The notes under the pieces were generated by a model, which was not told the DNA's origin, did not search any database, and was given only the letters and a program-made list of their open reading frames with translations. Positions 7,996 to 16,102 of a stretch of DNA of 64,000 nt are shown here, in pieces. The DNA is from Erysipelotrichaceae bacterium (GTDB lineage Bacteria; Bacillota_I; Bacilli_A; Erysipelotrichales; Erysipelotrichaceae), in NCBI GenBank assembly GCA_013334325.1, contig JAAXXT010000001.1:62001-126000 (forward strand), read 5' to 3'. The position numbers and the translations under genes are program-made. Every line of letters starts with the position of its first letter. The stretch's first letter is position 1.

Positions 7996-8019
7996 CTCAA
8001 CATCAAAAGTGATATTGTT

Positions 8020-8127
8020 ATCTTCTTTCATCCAGACTTTACTGTCGCCACCGGAATTAAACCGGTTCGTGCCCTTAGGCTCGCGGGGTATACCGCCGGT
8101 AGGGAATCGCACCCTGCCCTGAAGATA
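8020..8127 (-). promoter_or_regulatory. FMN riboswitch (RFN element)
   Basis: The minus strand carries the conserved RFN core: ATCTTCAGGGCAGGGTG at the 5' side, CCCTACCGGCGGTA, the GCGAGC block, CCGGT...ACCGG arms, GCGACAGTAAAGTCTGGATG, and a closing GAAGAT. The two ends pair as helix P1. It precedes ribU and a terminator, so high FMN should switch off riboflavin import. The upstream promoter must lie in the about 40 bases before efp's 3' end. Confidence 0.96.
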
Positions 8128-8166
8128 GTTATAGTTTAGCTTAAATGATGGTTTTTGTAAAGTGGC

Positions 8167-8724
8167 TTATGCTCTACCAGCGTATTTACCATCGACCGTA
8201 TTAACGATGATCATTTCACCTTCAGCAATAAACATAGGAACTTTAAGTTCTAAACCAGTTTCTAAAACAGCATTTTTCATTGCACTTGTAGCAGTATCTC
8301 CACGAACCGCAGGTTCAGTAGTACTGATTTGTAAAGTGACTTTATCAGGTAAAACAACTCCTAAGATTTCACCTTCATATGAAACGATATTGACATTATC
8401 ATTTGGCTTTAGGAAAGGCATTTCTTTCTCTAAATTGCTCTTTTGAATTTCGATTTGATCATAAGTGCTTGTATTCATGAAGCAAAGTGCATCTCCGCTA
8501 TCATATAGATACTGCATCTCATTCTTATCGATGTGAGCTGCTTCAACTTTGTCACCACCTGTAAAAGTGATTTCATTGATGACACCAGTTCTTAAATTCT
8601 TTACTTTGGATTTGATAATCATCCCACGCATCGCTGTTTTATTGTGTTGTGTGTCGAGGACAGTGAAAATATTGTCTTCATATACAAAGGTAATTCCTGG
8701 TCTTAAATCATTAACGATAATCAT
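8167..8724 (-). CDS. efp: translation elongation factor P
   Basis: Binds between the P and E sites to relieve stalling at proline stretches. The three beta-barrel domains are recognisable, including VKNLRTGVINEITF, QYLYDSGDALCFMNTSTYDQ and the C-terminal VDGKYAGRA. Length (185) is standard and the AGGAGG ribosome site is strong. The domain I loop that normally reads VKPGKG is NKTAMRG here, with Met at the usual modified position 32 and Arg at 33. This resembles Mollicutes EF-P loops and argues against the usual lysine modification routes. Confidence 0.95.
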   Translation of the reverse strand: MIIVNDLRPGITFVYEDNIFTVLDTQHNKTAMRGMIIKSKVKNLRTGVINEITFTGGDKVEAAHIDKNEMQYLYDSGDALCFMNTSTYDQIEIQKSNLEKEMPFLKPNDNVNIVSYEGEILGVVLPDKVTLQISTTEPAVRGDTATSAMKNAVLETGLELKVPMFIAEGEMIIVNTVDGKYAGRA

Positions 8725-8750
8725 AAATAGACCTCCTGTTTAACAGTTCT

Positions 8751-8778
8751 ATTTTAGAGTATTGTATCTATTTGTCAA
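8751..8778 (-). promoter_or_regulatory. promoter of efp
   Basis: On the minus strand TTGACA, a 16-base spacer and TAAAAT. The -35 overlaps the stop codon of the last comG gene. A short dyad CTGTTaAACAG lies between the -10 and the ribosome site. Confidence 0.7.
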
Positions 8779-9164
8779 TCACTATTACCATCAGATGAAT
8801 CATTAATCTGATAATCCAATACATTTTTGAAGACAGTATCATAGAACATGATCGCAGAGACTGTAGTTGGTCCCTGATAAATGATATTAGCAGTTTCTTC
8901 TATGAACACTACTTTGATGTCCCACTCCCCTACCTTGTAATTAAGATTTTTCGGTTTAAAAGTTAGAAACTGATCTTTAACTTGTTTAATGGTATAAATT
9001 TCAACCAATGAAAATTCGTCTAATTTAATAGAATTCCGACTTTCCTGTTTTCTTTGAAAGAGATTTACACTAATTCCATTTAGAAGCATTACAATAAATA
9101 GAAAAATAAGTATAAAAGGATAGAGTACAAAACCCTTATTTGAGATAACCGATGAAGATATCAT
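8775..9164 (-). CDS. comGG: ComGG-like minor pseudopilin
   Basis: Last gene of the comG operon. An N-terminal segment SNKGFVLYPFILIFLFIVML resembles a degenerate prepilin signal (KG then a hydrophobic helix), followed by a 90-residue polar domain. There is no clear sequence match beyond this; the assignment rests on position after ComGF and the pilin-like N-terminus. ComG minor pseudopilins prime the competence pseudopilus that draws DNA to the membrane. It overlaps the previous gene by 29 nt. Confidence 0.65.
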   Translation of the reverse strand: MISSSVISNKGFVLYPFILIFLFIVMLLNGISVNLFQRKQESRNSIKLDEFSLVEIYTIKQVKDQFLTFKPKNLNYKVGEWDIKVVFIEETANIIYQGPTTVSAIMFYDTVFKNVLDYQINDSSDGNSD

Positions 9165-9531
9165 AAGTATTTTCCTTAAATGTGTAACTTAGGCTTAAAT
9201 AATTATCGCTAGTCTTCCATTCGCAGTCATCAATTTCTAAAAGATATTCCATATATCCTTCTACTTCAATCAATCGTTCATTTTGACATAATAATTCAAT
9301 GTTTTGATTATTATACGTCATTGTTAAACTATCTCCTTTGATGACTATATCGCTTCCTACCGCTATTCTTTTTCTCAATTGAAGTATACCTAAAAAGTTC
9401 TGTCGTTCTGTCAACCCATAATCATATCTATGTAGGACTCTTAGAAACGTGTAAGTTAGCGCTAGTACGATAGGTAATAGAAGTATAACCAACATAGTTT
9501 CAATTAGGGTATAAGCTTTCCTAGTGCGCAT
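9136..9531 (-). CDS. comGF: ComGF-like minor pseudopilin
   Basis: The N-terminus RKAYTLIETMLVILLLPIV is a prepilin-type signal with the conserved Glu at +5 of the hydrophobic helix. The downstream domain contains IELLCQNERL and YLLEIDDCEW, with two cysteines that could form a disulfide as in ComGF. Length (131) fits. It overlaps both neighbours, consistent with tightly coupled translation in the operon. Confidence 0.75.
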   Translation of the reverse strand: MRTRKAYTLIETMLVILLLPIVLALTYTFLRVLHRYDYGLTERQNFLGILQLRKRIAVGSDIVIKGDSLTMTYNNQNIELLCQNERLIEVEGYMEYLLEIDDCEWKTSDNYLSLSYTFKENTYDIFIGYLK

Positions 9532-9680
9532 TTTAGATCACATTTCTTTGTAATTTGGACAAACTCATAGCGAAATTCTGTATTTGATACCTCTTGAAAC
9601 ACTTTAATGAACACACCTAATAAAAAAATGAATCCTAAAATGACTAAACTCAATTCAATGATCATAAATCCTTTTTTCAT
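9504..9680 (-). CDS. comGE: short ComGE-like pseudopilin (58 aa)
   Basis: A small ORF between the comGD- and comGF-like genes. Its product begins MKKGFMIIELSLVILG, a prepilin signal with KKG|F and Glu at +5, then a hydrophobic helix to about residue 25 and a short polar tail ending CALGKLIP. It overlaps comGD by 26 nt and comGF by 28 nt, so the region has no free spacing. Normal ComGE is longer (about 115 residues in Bacillus), so this may be a minimal minor pseudopilin. Confidence 0.7.
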   Translation of the reverse strand: MKKGFMIIELSLVILGFIFLLGVFIKVFQEVSNTEFRYEFVQITKKCDLKCALGKLIP

Positions 9681-9990
9681 GTATTTTACCTGTACCTATC
9701 AGTAATGTAATTTCAATAGATTCGAAACTTATACTTTGACCCATATTGATGTTTCCATTTGCGTTATATCGAATTGGATATTCAGTCTCAATTTCACCTT
9801 GATATTCTAAGGTTTGGTGATTAAGAATAGCCATGAATTGTATATGAAGTAGTGAAGATGTAAAATCTATGCTTTTGATTCTATTTGAGCTAATTGGTTT
9901 AACAAAAAACAAACTACAACTTAAAATAATCATCAAAACTATGCTTACTTCTATAAAGGTAAAACCTTTATTCGATACTAGCTTGTCCAT
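9655..9990 (-). CDS. comGD: ComGD-like minor pseudopilin
   Basis: Prepilin-type N-terminus SNKGFTFIEVSIVLMIIL (cleavage after G9, Glu at +5), then a 90-residue domain with beta-strand character. Length (111) is a little short for ComGD. It overlaps the end of comGC by 23 nt and the start of the short comGE-like ORF by 26 nt. Role inferred from position and pilin signal: a minor component initiating pseudopilus assembly. Confidence 0.78.
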   Translation of the reverse strand: MDKLVSNKGFTFIEVSIVLMIILSCSLFFVKPISSNRIKSIDFTSSLLHIQFMAILNHQTLEYQGEIETEYPIRYNANGNINMGQSISFESIEITLLIGTGKIHEKRIYDH

Positions 9991-10261
9991 CTACAATCAC
10001 GATCTGGTCATTATTTTGACAAGTTGTCTGTTCCTCTGTAATATAACCAGCATCTATGAGTTGAGATGTATCATCAGCAATCTCATTGAATTCCATCTTG
10101 TATTCAAGAATCGCTGCATCTATGACCTTTAATTGGGCTTCACACCCTTTCTTCTCAAATAGATTGAGTACCTTTTGTATATTCGGTATTGAAAGTAGAA
10201 AAAGTAAAGTAATTACACTAACAACTACGATCATTTCCAATAAAGTAAAACCTTTTTTCAT
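9968..10261 (-). CDS. comGC: major competence pseudopilin ComGC
   Basis: Major subunit of the DNA-uptake pseudopilus, processed by a prepilin peptidase (ComC, not in the window). The signal MKKGFTLLEMIVVVSVITLL is a textbook class III leader, with cleavage after Gly4 and Glu at +5. Residue pattern and length (97) match ComGC, including two cysteines (Cys40 and Cys80) that may form the intramolecular disulfide known for the family. It overlaps comGB by 4 nt. Confidence 0.92.
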   Translation of the reverse strand: MKKGFTLLEMIVVVSVITLLFLLSIPNIQKVLNLFEKKGCEAQLKVIDAAILEYKMEFNEIADDTSQLIDAGYITEEQTTCQNNDQIVIVDGQASIE

Positions 10262-11223
10262 AAGATCTTCTCCATCATTTCTATTGGTTTCAGCATGACT
10301 TGATATAGAATCATAATCATGAAGCTTATTTTAATATATGAATAAGCCAAGATTACTTTCCCATATTTCTTAATTTGATCAATAACGATTAATTCCTGAA
10401 TAGTAGCATAATGTTGAAGATATTTTGTGATGTCGATTCCTTCTTCATTCATCTTAAAATAAGCTTGTAGATCGGTGTTTATATTTACGATGGAATTTGT
10501 TAGATCCTGCCCCTCCTCAAGTGCCATCATCGTCTCAAAACATAGTTGACTAAGTACAGGTGAAGAACTCCATTGTATTTGTTTAAAAATCATATCTATG
10601 CTTCCTCCTAAACGATAGAAATATAGAAATTTCTCGCAAAATTGATGAGTAACCAATCTTGTCCATATATTTTGAGGCTTATATTTTTTGATCTTTGAAT
10701 AGAATTGGTATCCATTATTTTTTATAGATAATATTGTGAATAGAACTATACCTAATAAACTGAAATCAAAGACAATAAAAATAAGTAAAATCATTTGATA
10801 TAAAGATAAATCTAGTTTAGGACCTAGAAAAAGTAACATGGATTGAAACATTGGTAGGATGATCCCATTAACGAAAATCATCATAAAAAGACTGAACAAC
10901 AAAAGTAGCACTGGATATGATAGTCCTTTCAAAACCTTAGCTTGAATTCGTTTATTCAGATTTATTGAATGTAAAACGACCAACAATGCTTTTCTTGATT
11001 CACATTCCAATGAGAGTCTTTGATATTGAGTGAAACTTGTTTGGGATAATATGTTTCTTATTTGATGCTTATCTTCGAGATTAATTCCCAAAATTTTTTC
11101 GATTTCTTGATCATTGACTTCACTTTCTAACAAATCAGTGAGAATCAACGTATCCCTTTTTCTTTTTAATTTAAATAGATGAAAAACTTTATCTAGCGAT
11201 CTATATATTTTGGTATAGTTCAT
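10258..11223 (-). CDS. comGB: competence pseudopilus inner-membrane platform ComGB
   Basis: Type II secretion GspF-family membrane platform protein on which the pseudopilus is assembled. Three to four membrane segments are visible: about 104-130 (YPVLLLLFSLFMMIFVNGII), about 143-168 and a C-terminal one near 300. Length (321) is near the family's. It overlaps comGA by 23 nt. The partner ATPase is ComGA. Confidence 0.9.
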   Translation of the reverse strand: MNYTKIYRSLDKVFHLFKLKRKRDTLILTDLLESEVNDQEIEKILGINLEDKHQIRNILSQTSFTQYQRLSLECESRKALLVVLHSINLNKRIQAKVLKGLSYPVLLLLFSLFMMIFVNGIILPMFQSMLLFLGPKLDLSLYQMILLIFIVFDFSLLGIVLFTILSIKNNGYQFYSKIKKYKPQNIWTRLVTHQFCEKFLYFYRLGGSIDMIFKQIQWSSSPVLSQLCFETMMALEEGQDLTNSIVNINTDLQAYFKMNEEGIDITKYLQHYATIQELIVIDQIKKYGKVILAYSYIKISFMIMILYQVMLKPIEMMEKIL

Positions 11224-12052
11224 AACTCATGATCCTACTTTTCCCATCAGATTCTAATTTCTGATAAATAACTAGATTAAGAACACTAAGTATCTCATTT
11301 CTAGGTACACCTAAGTTTTCTAATCGGTCTATGGTTTTACTGGCTGAATTCGAATGGATTGTAGATAACACTAAATGGCCAGTTAATGCACAACGTAAAG
11401 CGGCCTTAGCTTCAATCTCATCACGAATTTCACCTATGACAATAAGATTAGGATCATGCCTAAGAACTTGTTTTAAAGCTGTCTCAAAGTTAAGATCCTG
11501 TCTTTCATTAACTTGAAGTTGAATTAACTGTGAATGATAGGCTTCTATAGGATCTTCAATCGTATAAATCTTAAGTTCACTTAAGGCATTTAAAATCGTG
11601 TAGAGCGTTGTTGTCTTTCCACTACCTGTGGTTCCAGATATCAAGATTAACCCCGCAGATCGCTTTAATTCAGCTTTGATTAAACTTAAATCATCAGCTT
11701 TGAATAAAGTGTCTAAACTTATATATCTAGGAGGATTCATGATCCTAATGACGATGCTTTCTGTAAAGTTATTTTTTATATGCGCAACTCTAAGCTGAAT
11801 GATTTGTTGACCTAAATCTACTTTAAAATAACCAGTTTGTGGACGATATGATTTTAAGAGATCTAGTTTTGAATGATATTTAATATATTCGAGTAGATTC
11901 CGATCTAGGTTTATATTTTTTACTTTAACCAAACCATGAAGAGTCCTAAATTCACAAAAACCCTGTCCTTCTCTAAACGTAAGATGAAGATCAGTGCTTT
12001 TTAACTTTAGTGCCTTTAAGATTAATGAATGAAAAAGAACTTCTGTACTCAT
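11201..12052 (-). CDS. comGA: competence pseudopilus assembly ATPase ComGA
   Basis: Hexameric GspE/PilB-type ATPase that drives pseudopilus assembly at the membrane. Walker A GTTGSGKTT is at 140-148, the Asp box around IEDPIE, Walker B LIVIGEIRDE at 203-212 and the His box TGHLVLSTIHS after it. It is 283 residues, shorter than Bacillus ComGA (about 356), mainly at the C-terminus. The ATG has no Shine-Dalgarno and is buried in the 3' arm of a 20-bp hairpin; no later start keeps the conserved STDLHLTFRE block. First gene of the seven-gene comG operon. Confidence 0.92.
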   Translation of the reverse strand: MSTEVLFHSLILKALKLKSTDLHLTFREGQGFCEFRTLHGLVKVKNINLDRNLLEYIKYHSKLDLLKSYRPQTGYFKVDLGQQIIQLRVAHIKNNFTESIVIRIMNPPRYISLDTLFKADDLSLIKAELKRSAGLILISGTTGSGKTTTLYTILNALSELKIYTIEDPIEAYHSQLIQLQVNERQDLNFETALKQVLRHDPNLIVIGEIRDEIEAKAALRCALTGHLVLSTIHSNSASKTIDRLENLGVPRNEILSVLNLVIYQKLESDGKSRIMSYELYQNI

Positions 12053-12080
12053 AATTGAATTTATGAGATAGAAGTTCTTT
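12034..12080 (-). promoter_or_regulatory. long hairpin covering the comGA start codon
   Basis: Arms AAAGAACTTC and GAAGTTCTTT (ten pairs) continue inward as three further pairs, a one-base bulge and CTCATAA/TTATGAG (seven pairs) around a six-base loop. On the minus-strand RNA the 3' arm contains the comGA ATG and is followed by UUUUUC, giving a terminator-like profile. It starts 4 nt after the stop of the MBL gene. Either it ends MBL transcription, or it controls comGA translation, or both. Confidence 0.7.
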
Positions 12081-12084
12081 GTCC

Positions 12085-12678
12085 TTACTTTAAATAAATA
12101 TTCGTTAATTTCTCTAGTTTTAAACTGGTTGATTCATCATGTCCTGGATAAACCAAGTAATCCTTATTAATGGATTTGATCAATCTAAGGCTTTGTTTCA
12201 TTTTAGTTGGATTACTGGTTCTTAGATCAGTTCTACCCACGCTTTGCATAAATAGTGTATCACCACTAAACATAAAATCTTCAATGAGTAAACATACCGA
12301 GCCCTCAGTATGACCTGGGGTTTCTAAAATCTCAAATGAGAAATCACCTATATCTAGAATCTTAGGATAAGGTAATGTTTTAACTTCAACAATAAATCTT
12401 TTTGGAAAAGAATAATTTAATTGGGGATCCTTCATTAAAGGTTCATCTTCTTCATTAAGATAAATAGGACAAGTAAAATGAGTCAAAAGATCGTTGATGG
12501 CTCCAATATGATCAAAATGGGCATGAGTTAAAAGTATAGCCAGTACTTTATTCTCTCCAAGGGCGCTTAAGATACGTTCTGCTTTAGCTCCGGGATCAAT
12601 AATGATGGCTTTACCATTCTTAATTAAGATATAACAATTGGTTTGAAGAATACCAACTTTTACTGTTTTGATGTCCAT
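12085..12678 (-). CDS. MBL-fold metallohydrolase (YqgX-like)
   Basis: Glyoxalase-II-like metallo-beta-lactamase-fold hydrolase. The metal motif THAHFDH is at residues 51-57 and GTLF-type SGDTLF and PGH motifs follow at the usual places. Length (197) matches small stand-alone family members that lack the glyoxalase II C-terminal domain, so the substrate is uncertain (S-lactoylglutathione or bacillithiol-type thioesters have been proposed for relatives). It lies directly upstream of comGA, as yqgX lies near comG in Bacillus. No Shine-Dalgarno precedes the ATG. Confidence 0.85.
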   Translation of the reverse strand: MDIKTVKVGILQTNCYILIKNGKAIIIDPGAKAERILSALGENKVLAILLTHAHFDHIGAINDLLTHFTCPIYLNEEDEPLMKDPQLNYSFPKRFIVEVKTLPYPKILDIGDFSFEILETPGHTEGSVCLLIEDFMFSGDTLFMQSVGRTDLRTSNPTKMKQSLRLIKSINKDYLVYPGHDESTSLKLEKLTNIYLK

Positions 12679-12682
12679 ATAA

Positions 12683-12702
12683 TAAAAAAGCCGTGAGGCT
12701 TA
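12683..12702 (-). terminator. intrinsic terminator after rpmG
   Basis: AAGCC/GGCTT stem with a TCAC loop (minus strand) and a run of six T residues, overlapping the rpmG stop codon. It ends only a few bases before the MBL gene's ATG. Confidence 0.75.
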
Positions 12703-12849
12703 TTTTTTTTCCTTATGCATGGTTTGTTTGTTGCATCTTGGGCAAAACTTTTTAACTTCCATCTTTTCTGGATGTTTCTTTTTATTTCTGGTGTTAATGT
12801 AGTTTTCTTCGTTGCAAACAGTACATTTGAACATAATGTTCTCTCTCAT
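12700..12849 (-). CDS. rpmG: 50S ribosomal protein L33
   Basis: 49-residue large-subunit protein. The translation starts MRENIMFKCTVCNEENY and has the zinc-ribbon pairs CTVC and CPRC, so it is the zinc-binding (C+) form. The RNKKKHPEK basic stretch is typical of L33. The start has AAGGAG at good spacing and an extended -10 promoter upstream. Located between the class B PBP and the MBL gene. Confidence 0.95.
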   Translation of the reverse strand: MRENIMFKCTVCNEENYINTRNKKKHPEKMEVKKFCPRCNKQTMHKEKK

Positions 12850-12874
12850 ATTGTTCTCCTTTTAACGCTTAATT

Positions 12875-12883
12875 AGTATAACA
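12875..12883 (-). promoter_or_regulatory. extended -10 promoter of rpmG
   Basis: TGTTATACT on the minus strand, about 25 nt before the rpmG start and upstream of its AAGGAG site. Confidence 0.55.
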
Positions 12884-12896
12884 TAGGTTTTTTAAA

Positions 12897-14969
12897 TTAT
12901 CTACCTTTAAAATAATAAACCATTATTTCATTCACTATTTTATAACAAAGATTATCATATGACTTTATCCCACTAAACGCATCAGGGATTCCACACGCAA
13001 TTGCGATCTCTGGTTTGGTGTAAGGAGCGTAAGTAACGACGAGAGAATTTGAAGACTCGATCAAATTACCCTTACTATCCACCACAAAGGTTTCAGCTGT
13101 TCCTGTCTTAGCAGCAACAGCAACTGATACATTTTGTAGAGAACGACATAATCCGTTGGTGACACATAATCTAAAGCCTTTTTGTACTCTTTCTAGCGCC
13201 ATTTGATTGTCTAGAACATTCAGTACAGTAACATCATTTTGATAAGTAATGATGTCTGTATTGGCTTGAGTAGCTTTTAAAAGAAGCCTCGGTTCAATAC
13301 GTTTGCCTCCATTAGCGATGGTGGATATATATTGTGCGAGTTGCATTACGGTATAAGTATCATATTGGCCAATTGCGAAATCTAATAGATGGCCCCCTAA
13401 GATTGCTGAACCTTTATACCCTGTCGCTTCATAAGGTACATCCACTCCGGTTAAAGAACCCAAACCAAATTGACTGTAATAATTTCTCATTATATCGAAA
13501 GCTGCGATATCTATATCCAATCCTTGATCATACTTATAGGTTGCTCCTCCAAGCCTCATTGCCACATGAAACATATAAACATTACTTGAGAGTGCTAATG
13601 CTTGTATATCTGAAAGCTTACCTAAGTACGTATATGATTTCTTTATTGGTGTTTCTTTTATTTTAATAGCAGCATCATCAATGACTTCTCCCGGTTTTAT
13701 GACACCTTCGGAAAGTCCCATATATACAGTTGCGCCTTTAATGATAGATCCAATCGACATAGCTTGAGAAAATATTCGATTGGTATCATTGACGATAACT
13801 CCATCTTCATATCCCATCGATAGCATGGTTAACACATCCCCATTATTAGGATTCATGATAACGATATTAACATTTTTGAAGTATGCTCTCACTTTATTTT
13901 TAGATTCTGTTTCAATCCATCTCGCGACGATACGTTCAACATTTTGTTGCAGAACTGAATCAAAACTAAGGTATAAATCTTGACCGTTTGTTCCCTGTGC
14001 TATTTCAGTAAATCGAACCAATCCCTTTTGATCATAAGTAACTTGATAAGTGCTCTCCTGCCCTTTTAGTAAGCTTTCATAATATTGCTCAATCCCAGTT
14101 TTTCCGATAACACTGTTTCTCGAATATCCCAAAGCTAGATGATATAACAAATAATCAGAACTTAAGCCTTGTTTACTCGTAGTTACTGTGCCCAATAGAC
14201 TGGTTAATAAGTCTCCATTCAGATAAGTACGATCGTAATAGATCTGAGCATCAAATCCATAGAAATCATCATTATTTTCTGACAGATAAGCTATTTCTTC
14301 TATAGTACAATCATTTTTTATGATTTTTATGCTTTTCGCTGGAGCAGCATTCATTAAGGTATAAACGATGTAAGTACTTTTTGTTTCATCATCAAATGAA
14401 AGATATTCACTCTCTGTAATTCTAGCTAATTTCATTTGATATATGTCAGAATCACTTAGTTTATTATCATAGTATAAAGTCCACTCTTCATCTGTAATTT
14501 TCTTACTAACGAGATCAGGATATTTCATAATATAGAGGTCTTTTAAATCTCTTGGGTAAAGACTTGTGTTATCTATCGCAAAATGTTTAATGAAAAGTTT
14601 AGCCATCTCCCATTCTTCAGTTGAAGAAATATTAGCTGGAGGGTAGTAAACAATTGATAAACGCTCAGCATTACTGACTAAGATCTCGCCATTTCGATCA
14701 TAGATAACCCCTCTTTGAGAAGGAATACCAATATAACTCTTAGTAAAATCTACTAGCTTTTGTTTATATTCTTCATTTTTTGTGATCTGTAGAGCGTAAA
14801 GATTAACCCATACGAGACTAAATAGTAAAAGAACGGATACGATAATGATCTTAAATCGACGATCTATGGATCGATCTAAATCAAATTCTCTTTCTCTTTT
14901 TATTGCATTGATTTCTGCGAGTTCTTTATTTTCAGATGTTGTTGGTTTATTAAGTTTAGGTTTTATCAC
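12897..14969 (-). CDS. pbpA: class B penicillin-binding protein (PBP2/PbpA-like transpeptidase)
   Basis: Monofunctional DD-transpeptidase that cross-links peptidoglycan. An N-terminal membrane anchor is at about 39-58, then a dimerisation/pedestal region starting SQRGVIYDRNGE, and the transpeptidase domain with S408-I-I-K411, S461-S-N463 and K621-T-G-T624. 690 residues is normal. The start is GTG at 14969, exactly 6 nt after a TATAAT hexamer and without a Shine-Dalgarno, so the mRNA may be leaderless. Its position next to rpmG and near ispG matches Bacillus pbpA, whose product acts in sidewall elongation. Confidence 0.9.
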   Translation of the reverse strand: MIKPKLNKPTTSENKELAEINAIKREREFDLDRSIDRRFKIIIVSVLLLFSLVWVNLYALQITKNEEYKQKLVDFTKSYIGIPSQRGVIYDRNGEILVSNAERLSIVYYPPANISSTEEWEMAKLFIKHFAIDNTSLYPRDLKDLYIMKYPDLVSKKITDEEWTLYYDNKLSDSDIYQMKLARITESEYLSFDDETKSTYIVYTLMNAAPAKSIKIIKNDCTIEEIAYLSENNDDFYGFDAQIYYDRTYLNGDLLTSLLGTVTTSKQGLSSDYLLYHLALGYSRNSVIGKTGIEQYYESLLKGQESTYQVTYDQKGLVRFTEIAQGTNGQDLYLSFDSVLQQNVERIVARWIETESKNKVRAYFKNVNIVIMNPNNGDVLTMLSMGYEDGVIVNDTNRIFSQAMSIGSIIKGATVYMGLSEGVIKPGEVIDDAAIKIKETPIKKSYTYLGKLSDIQALALSSNVYMFHVAMRLGGATYKYDQGLDIDIAAFDIMRNYYSQFGLGSLTGVDVPYEATGYKGSAILGGHLLDFAIGQYDTYTVMQLAQYISTIANGGKRIEPRLLLKATQANTDIITYQNDVTVLNVLDNQMALERVQKGFRLCVTNGLCRSLQNVSVAVAAKTGTAETFVVDSKGNLIESSNSLVVTYAPYTKPEIAIACGIPDAFSGIKSYDNLCYKIVNEIMVYYFKGR

Positions 14970-14975
14970 AGGTCT

Positions 14976-14981
14976 ATTATA
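14976..14981 (-). promoter_or_regulatory. -10 element of the class B PBP gene
   Basis: Perfect TATAAT on the minus strand with 6 nt to the GTG start codon; TG lies two bases further upstream (TGATTATAAT). No Shine-Dalgarno follows. Confidence 0.5.
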
Positions 14982-15031
14982 ATCATTTTAAGACCAAAAT
15001 CATAGTGTGATATACTTGTTTAGAGGTTAAA

Positions 15032-16102
15032 ATGAACAGAACACAAACAAGACCCATCTTCGTAAACGGTTTACAAATCGGTGGTCAAAACAAAGTCATC
15101 ATTCAATCAATGACGAATACGAAAACAAAAGATATTGAATCTACCATCTCTCAAATCAAAGCTTTAGAAGGATTTGGTTGCGAAATGATAAGATTAGCTA
15201 TACTAGATGAAGAAGATGCTTTAGCAATTAAGGAAATCATAAAGGAATCAAAAGTGCCTTTAGTCGCAGACATTCATTTTAACTATAAATTAGCATTAAT
15301 GGCCATTGAAAGTGGCATCCATAAAATCAGATTAAATCCAGGAAACATAAAGAACAAAGATCATATAGAATTGGTAGTAAAAGCCTGTATAGAAAAGAAA
15401 ATTCCAATTCGTATCGGTATCAATTCTGGATCATTAGAAAAATCCATCTTACAGAAGTACGATAATATTCCATGTGCAGAAGCTATGATTGAATCTGCAC
15501 AGGTTCATATCAAGATTCTAGAGGATTTAGATTTTCATGATATCGCCTTATCTTTTAAATCTAGCGATGTGCGATTAACGATAGATGTATATGAAAAGGC
15601 ATCTAAACTCTTTCCCTATCCTCTTCATTTAGGTGTGACAGAAGCAGGAACTCTTATTGGTTCTTCAATAAAATCATCCGCAGCTTTAGGTATCTTACTT
15701 CATCAAGGCATAGGAGATACACTTCGTATTTCTATCAGTGATGATCCAGTTGAGGAAATAAAAGTAGCGAAGCAATTACTTAAAGCATTTGGGTTGTATG
15801 CCAATGTAGCAGATCTGGTTGCGTGTCCTACTTGTGGTCGACTTCAATATGATATGTTGCCCATCGTAAATGAGATAGAAACTTATCTAAATACAATTCA
15901 AAAAGACATAACAGTAGCTGTGATGGGTTGTCCAGTCAATGGTCCTCAAGAAGCCTCTAGAGCTGATATTGGGGTTGCTGGCGGATATAAAGAGGCATTA
16001 CTCTTCAAAAGAGGTATATTTATCCGTTCTATTCCTCAAGAAGATATTGTTAAAGAGTTAAAGATCGAAATAGAACAATACATCAAAGACAATAAGCTTT
16101 AA
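15032..16102 (+). CDS. ispG: 4-hydroxy-3-methylbut-2-en-1-yl diphosphate synthase
   Basis: [4Fe-4S] enzyme of the MEP isoprenoid pathway that makes HMBPP from MEcPP. The cluster ligands appear as CPTCG and GCPVNGPQEASRADIG in the C-terminal part; the N-terminal TIM barrel has the VADIHF and RLNPGN motifs. Length (356) fits the short bacterial type. It has an AGAGG ribosome site and a TGtgaTATACT promoter-like sequence upstream. The next enzyme, ispH, is encoded 1.4 kb downstream on the same strand. Confidence 0.97.
   Translation: MNRTQTRPIFVNGLQIGGQNKVIIQSMTNTKTKDIESTISQIKALEGFGCEMIRLAILDEEDALAIKEIIKESKVPLVADIHFNYKLALMAIESGIHKIRLNPGNIKNKDHIELVVKACIEKKIPIRIGINSGSLEKSILQKYDNIPCAEAMIESAQVHIKILEDLDFHDIALSFKSSDVRLTIDVYEKASKLFPYPLHLGVTEAGTLIGSSIKSSAALGILLHQGIGDTLRISISDDPVEEIKVAKQLLKAFGLYANVADLVACPTCGRLQYDMLPIVNEIETYLNTIQKDITVAVMGCPVNGPQEASRADIGVAGGYKEALLFKRGIFIRSIPQEDIVKELKIEIEQYIKDNKL

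Follow-up and report, generated by a model that had tools for sequence, protein, structure and literature searches.

How can a competence operon be expressed when the start codon of its first gene lies inside a hairpin that resembles a transcription terminator? This question is raised by comGA, which encodes the competence pilus ATPase, in a stretch of 64,000 nucleotides (nt) from an Erysipelotrichaceae bacterium (assembly GCA_013334325.1, contig JAAXXT010000001.1, positions 62,001 to 126,000; the whole stretch is referred to as the window). Upstream of comGA, on the same strand, lies a gene for an MBL-fold hydrolase (the MBL gene). Comparison with further genomes of the genus leads us to the reading that the hairpin is probably the terminator of the MBL gene, which is laid over the promoter and the start of a leaderless comGA in such a way that the comG transcript itself is spared.

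The comGA start codon is embedded in a stable hairpin

On the minus strand, the hairpin consists of 11 outer pairs, a 2x3 internal loop, and seven inner pairs that enclose a 6-nt loop (12060-12055); the positions of the arms are listed in Table 1. The fold energy is -20.6 kcal/mol (z -6.5), and none of 200 shuffled sequences was equally stable. A hairpin had already been described in an initial annotation, which was made from the sequence alone and counted ten outer and ten further pairs around a six-base loop. The loop size was correct, but the further pairs were overcounted, as it takes the plus strand, on which the A.C mismatch turns into G.U, to form a near-continuous helix of 20 pairs. 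As had been described, the ATG (12052-12050) sits within the 3' arm, in its inner part, and a U tract, UUCUUUUU, follows. The stem begins 4 nt past the MBL stop codon, on the same strand.

Two further statements of the initial annotation proved accurate, namely that comGA lacks a Shine-Dalgarno motif and that the conserved N-terminus of ComGA requires this ATG. At normal spacing no such motif is present, the sequence AAGGA (12086-12082) being located 29 nt ahead of the ATG, and the N-terminus begins exactly at this codon. The ComGA family NF041000 was the top NCBIfam match of the product, with 252 bits and thus below the cut-off of 300. Among the 63 gene starts of the window, comGA was the only one with such a hairpin at -8 kcal/mol or lower; at random sense positions inside genes, the background was 3 of 1490.

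The hairpin is conserved or replaced by an ordinary terminator

Eight genomes of the genus were compared, seven of which possess this comGA. The hairpin is present in four of them (G000, G001, G002, and G006). In G006 most of the outer stem differs in sequence, the pairing register is the same, and four double compensatory changes have occurred; the arm sequences are wholly different between G000 (GAACTTCT) and G006 (GGTTTCCG). In the alignment of the four sequences, double changes were found at 4 of 14 pairs and 92.9% of the cells were paired, a result that 4 of 500 shuffles matched. When the pairing partners were shifted by one to three columns, the paired fraction dropped from 93% to 36-46%. 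An alignment of relatives had been proposed beforehand in the initial annotation as a check on the RNA structure, and the pairing turned out to be conserved, with compensatory changes. A scan of genome contigs matched a single named relative, CAIXIN010000131.1, which is 92% identical.

The remaining three genomes, G003, G004, and G005, have no hairpin at the comGA start and have kept the same promoter. An ordinary hairpin terminator is located upstream instead, and its T run directly touches the AGGA box of the promoter. The T-rich tract within comGA is found in the four hairpin-bearing genomes and is absent from the three others. The gap between the MBL stop codon and the AGGA box is -1 or -2 nt in the hairpin group (in the window it is -1, as the TAA at 12087-12085 and the box have one base in common), and it is 27-28 nt in G003-G005, matching the ordinary terminator in length.

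A fixed promoter distance predicts a leaderless comGA transcript

At all seven comGA loci of the genus the AGGA box is found at the same distance from the ATG, exactly 33 nt, and positions 21-24, with AGGA as the starting point of the count, read CRTA. The initial annotation had considered that comGA might be leaderless, with a TAAATT just upstream of the ATG. Leaderlessness was supported in substance, but the -10 box is better read as CATAAA, within the arrangement AGGA-N16-CRTA. The recA gene provides the calibration. Its promoter motif, AGGAATACACAAGGTTAACACATAAA, lies at exactly -43 in 8/8 genomes, and a Shine-Dalgarno motif is contained in the extra ten bases. If transcription starts about 33 bases past AGGA, the recA mRNA has a normal short leader and the mRNAs of the other genes have none, and it is mainly for this reason that comGA is read as leaderless. 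The comGA mRNA probably starts at the ATG or within about 2 nt before it. The 5' end of an mRNA that begins at the ATG would have little structure (z +1.7, with 197 of 200 shuffles more stable).

The same geometry characterizes a putative competence regulon

The same geometry was found at dprA in 8/8 genomes, with the box present as (A/C)GGA. A search of the genus for MGGA-N16-CRTA-N9-ATG yielded 67 matches versus 22 for the reversed pattern. On its own, the short pattern AGGA-N16-CRTAWA showed no more than mild enrichment (31 versus 18 for its reverse); it became informative once the distance to the ATG was included. Matches with a proper gene at the ATG comprised comGA, dprA, comFA-like helicases, comEA, comK (PF06338, E 1.5e-21), an ABC transporter ATPase, a 110-amino acid protein of the MG284/MPN403 family, and an unknown protein of 124 amino acids (orf124). 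For comEA the distance of the box is 33 nt in seven of eight genomes and 34 nt in G006. A comK homologue is encoded in seven of the eight genomes; the distance is 33 nt in five of these genes and 34 nt in one, and the start of the seventh (L217) could not be assigned.

In total, 41 regulon starts were examined, which are related and not independent loci. The -35 box contains GG at 41/41 starts and reads AGGA or CGGA at 40/41. In the -10 box, C was found at 40/41, A or G at 41/41, T at 35/41 (A at 5), and A at 40/41. The start codon is directly preceded by GT in 37/41 cases, and a Shine-Dalgarno-like 4-mer is present in two. Both ssbA and ssbB were examined and do not carry the competence promoter. 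When the strictest pattern was searched for across the family, 4 of 58 genomes gave matches, and in G009, which belongs to another genus, the AGGA of comGA (L013) is likewise separated from the ATG by exactly this distance of 33 nt. The full architecture seems to be mainly characteristic of the source genus.

Several observations concern individual members. The 110-amino acid protein (L131, L138, L162, and L172) matched NF045770 with E 1.7e-20, a family named for mycoplasma proteins. The orf124 product (L154, L159, and L166) has a C-terminal hydrophobic segment, and its gene follows downstream, at a distance of about 9.5 kb from the start of comGA. Directly after comEA, a large membrane-protein-like open reading frame (ORF) is present in the genomes inspected (L135, L155, L168, and L170). 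The ComEC family PF03772 matched nothing in the eight genomes; an absence of the DNA channel was considered and rejected, and the ORF after comEA is read as a highly diverged ComEC. In another family of the order (f2), the comGA loci (L015, L017, L019, L024, L027, and L030) share a recurrent upstream element of a different kind, in which a GCGTATAT-like box precedes an AGGAGG Shine-Dalgarno motif; this element is perhaps that family's own competence promoter.

Two forms of predicted terminators at the regulon starts

Insulation from upstream transcription predicts that start-overlapping and ordinary terminators are distributed in a complementary manner over the regulon. Terminators were defined strictly, with 6 T demanded in a 7-base window. 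This criterion replaced a contiguous-stem search, which had overlooked comGA because of its internal loop, and a lenient criterion, which had a background of 13% at intragenic positions.

The comEA start codon lies under a terminator-like hairpin with a U tract in 8/8 genomes (L198-L205; for example G000:C17:25788-26243, L202), with hairpins such as AAGAAGAGT-ATGAA-ACTCTTCTTTTT. The arms differ in sequence, a compensatory change from A-U to G-C was found between G000 and G006, and the -10 box is not involved. An overlapping start-codon hairpin is also present at comFA of G006 and at orf124 in two genomes. Ordinary terminators adjoin the -35 box of comK (five loci tested), of four copies of the 110-amino acid protein gene, and of comFA in G000. 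Under the strict criteria, 13 of the 41 starts have solely an overlapping hairpin, 14 solely an upstream terminator (orf124 at L159 included), two have both, and 12 have neither. This complementary distribution agrees with the prediction, the relatedness of the loci notwithstanding.

A SigH-like sigma factor is the candidate reader of the promoter

In Listeria, comG and comE are driven by SigH promoters (PMC4754846), of which the AGGA box is the hallmark, and SigH promoters also drive competence genes in Staphylococcus aureus and Lactobacillus sakei (PMC3486894, PMC3364868). The genome encodes a sigma factor of 203 amino acids, for which SigH was the best NCBIfam match, and the neighbourhood mrnC-rlmB-sigH-nusG is conserved around its gene. 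The names in this neighbourhood were assigned from the ORF positions and the Bacillus subtilis gene order. The comG promoter is probably read by this factor, which is encoded elsewhere in the genome. We call the factor no more than SigH-like because the -10 box departs from the SigH consensus.

A terminator that would spare the gene it overlaps

In the reading that we favor, comGA would be transcribed from its own promoter, and the hairpin would serve the MBL gene as its intrinsic terminator while spanning the promoter, the start codon, and the first codons of comGA. This placement would follow from the lack of any spacer between the MBL stop codon and the promoter. A polymerase arriving from the MBL gene would copy both arms, so that the hairpin could form and transcription would stop in the U tract inside comGA; in a read-through transcript that escaped termination, the ATG would be buried in the stem. 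A polymerase starting at the comG promoter would begin downstream of the 5' arm, and its transcript, with the U tract and no more than the 3' arm of the hairpin, would be exempt from the terminator. The competence operon would be insulated from its neighbor with no additional intergenic DNA spent. It has been reported that terminators can work early in ORFs and, in B. subtilis, within a few nt of a preceding stop codon (PMC7858274). A terminator of the MBL gene merged into the 5' end of comGA had been one of the two alternatives offered in the initial annotation, and its position, the U tract, the compensatory changes, and the ordinary terminator that replaces it in congeners all speak for it.

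The other alternative was an attenuator or RNA switch, in which the comG mRNA begins upstream and the hairpin terminates transcription or hides the AUG until a signal opens it. A hairpin with a U tract that is kept over the AUG in four genomes, with compensatory changes, would fit such a switch. However, the shared 33-nt geometry from promoter to ATG would leave no leader and would keep the 5' arm out of the mRNA, G003-G005 have the same promoter and no start hairpin, and the distance from the MBL stop codon to the ATG is too short for an alternative antiterminator fold. Moreover, an Rfam scan of positions 8000-16000 revealed no known cis-regulatory RNA at the comGA start, an FMN riboswitch being the sole match. 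Evidence for a transcript start within the hairpin counts against the switch and not against the terminator, and we regard the switch as quite unlikely. It is also unlikely, if less so, that the hairpin mainly tunes translation, with part of the comG expression arising from MBL-gene read-through, the AUG sequestered, and little termination taking place. The AUG would indeed be paired within a read-through transcript, and a ribosome ending at the MBL stop codon would contact the 5' arm, but all four hairpins come with a U tract, the three hairpin-free genomes lack this tract, and the hairpin and ordinary terminators substitute for each other.

The inverted repeat might act as DNA, as an operator bound by a competence regulator such as ComK. 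The repeat overlaps the promoter, ComK homologues are widespread in the genus (7/8 genomes), and in some cases the repeat has A-rich and T-rich ends. Yet pairing and not sequence has been kept, both between G000 and G006 and among comGA, comEA, and comFA, and the T tract at comGA of G006 is not mirrored by an A tract on the other side; an operator is very improbable. Hardly any weight can be given to the view that the palindrome is a functionless by-product of a CATAA -10 box next to a TTATG start: the CRTA box and a TATG start are inherently complementary and provide four or five pairs for free, but neither signal extends into the outer stem, which bears the compensatory changes, the comEA hairpins are independent of the -10 box, and the two signals are present without a hairpin at dprA, comK, and three comGA loci.

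Several results weigh against the self-exempting terminator and its SigH-like promoter. The hairpin comparison comprises four genomes, all four double changes stem from one lineage (G006), and the genus is represented by uncultured assemblies only. The GT that precedes most regulon starts is absent at comGA of G000-G002. In two of its three genomes orf124 combines an upstream terminator with an overlapping hairpin, so that the overlapping form possibly does not serve insulation alone, and dprA and the ABC transporter gene have neither form. The 203-amino acid sigma factor scored 89.5 bits, compared with an equivalog cut-off of 294.8 for SigH, and the SigH -10 consensus RRMGAAW at a spacing of 11-12 nt (PMC4754846) was not matched, CRTA(W) being found at positions 21-24 instead.

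Table 1. Features of the comGA locus and of the recA promoter in the window
Feature	Position	Strand	Remarks
MBL-fold hydrolase gene, 197 amino acids	12085..12678	-	ORF; PF00753 E 1e-31; upstream neighbor of comGA
-35-like box AGGA of comGA promoter	12082..12085	-	33 nt before ATG; same spacing at 7/7 genus comGA loci
-10-like box CATAAA	12060..12065	-	CRTA at positions 21-24 counted from AGGA
Terminator-like hairpin	12034..12080	-	5' arms 12080-12070 and 12067-12061; 3' arms 12054-12048 and 12044-12034
Predicted transcription start region	12052..12054	-	A of ATG or up to 2 nt earlier; from -10 box and recA leader
U tract UUCUUUUU	12039-12032	-	Closes stem and extends past it; inside comGA codons 5-7
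comGA, competence pilus ATPase, comG operon gene 1, predicted leaderless	11201..12052	-	PF00437 E 1.1e-67
recA promoter motif AGGAATACACAAGGTTAACACATAAA	56619..56644	-	43 nt before recA ATG

Relation to known systems

None of the three elements is new in itself: intrinsic terminators, SigH competence promoters, and leaderless mRNAs have all been described. Intrinsic terminators directly after stop codons in Bacillota likewise have a stable hairpin a few nt past the stop codon and then a U tract (PMC7858274). The comGA hairpin differs in that it is superimposed on the promoter, start codon, and first codons of the next gene, the transcript of which would escape. The SigH competence promoters of Listeria monocytogenes (comG and comE), S. 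aureus, and L. sakei share with the genus the AGGA -35 box, the competence genes downstream, and a SigH-like sigma gene in an rlmB-nusG neighbourhood. However, SigH promoters have a GAAT -10 box, whereas those of the genus have CRTA(W), and the Listeria comGA promoter is 19 nt from the gene (PMC4754846), whereas in the genus the start codon coincides with the predicted start site. In Streptococcus pneumoniae, about 9% of operons are leaderless and efficient translation has been demonstrated (PMC6212727); the passages of that study considered here do not describe leaderlessness tied to a competence regulon with one fixed promoter-ATG distance, as predicted for the genus. In the competence pathway of S. 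aureus, an inverted repeat in the 5' untranslated region of sigH likewise places a hairpin close to a start codon, but that repeat lies inside the mRNA and lowers SigH production post-transcriptionally (PMC3486894), whereas an mRNA started at the comG promoter would not contain the 5' arm.

In the open-licence literature we found no description of leaderless competence genes or of terminators over start codons, nor of a terminator that spares the gene it overlaps and recurs through a competence regulon. We lean towards the broader view that the genus has a leaderless, fixed-distance competence regulon in which operons are guarded by self-exempting terminators (comGA, comEA, comFA, and orf124) that have been exchanged with ordinary ones during evolution. 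If true, a compact genome would insulate a tightly silenced operon at no intergenic cost; terminator, promoter, start codon, and first codons would fit into about 50 bases, and the start site would determine which transcript is terminated. A leaderless competence regulon of an uncultured lineage would be defined from sequence alone, and it offers candidate new competence genes, encoding ComK, the 110-amino acid MG284/MPN403-family protein, and the 124-amino acid protein.

Further observations in the window

The FMN riboswitch (RF00050) is located at 8016-8130 on the minus strand and scored 105.8 bits. The start of the MBL gene (12678-12705) lies a few bases past the U tract of the rpmG terminator and has no Shine-Dalgarno motif; the same arrangement was found in G001 and G002.
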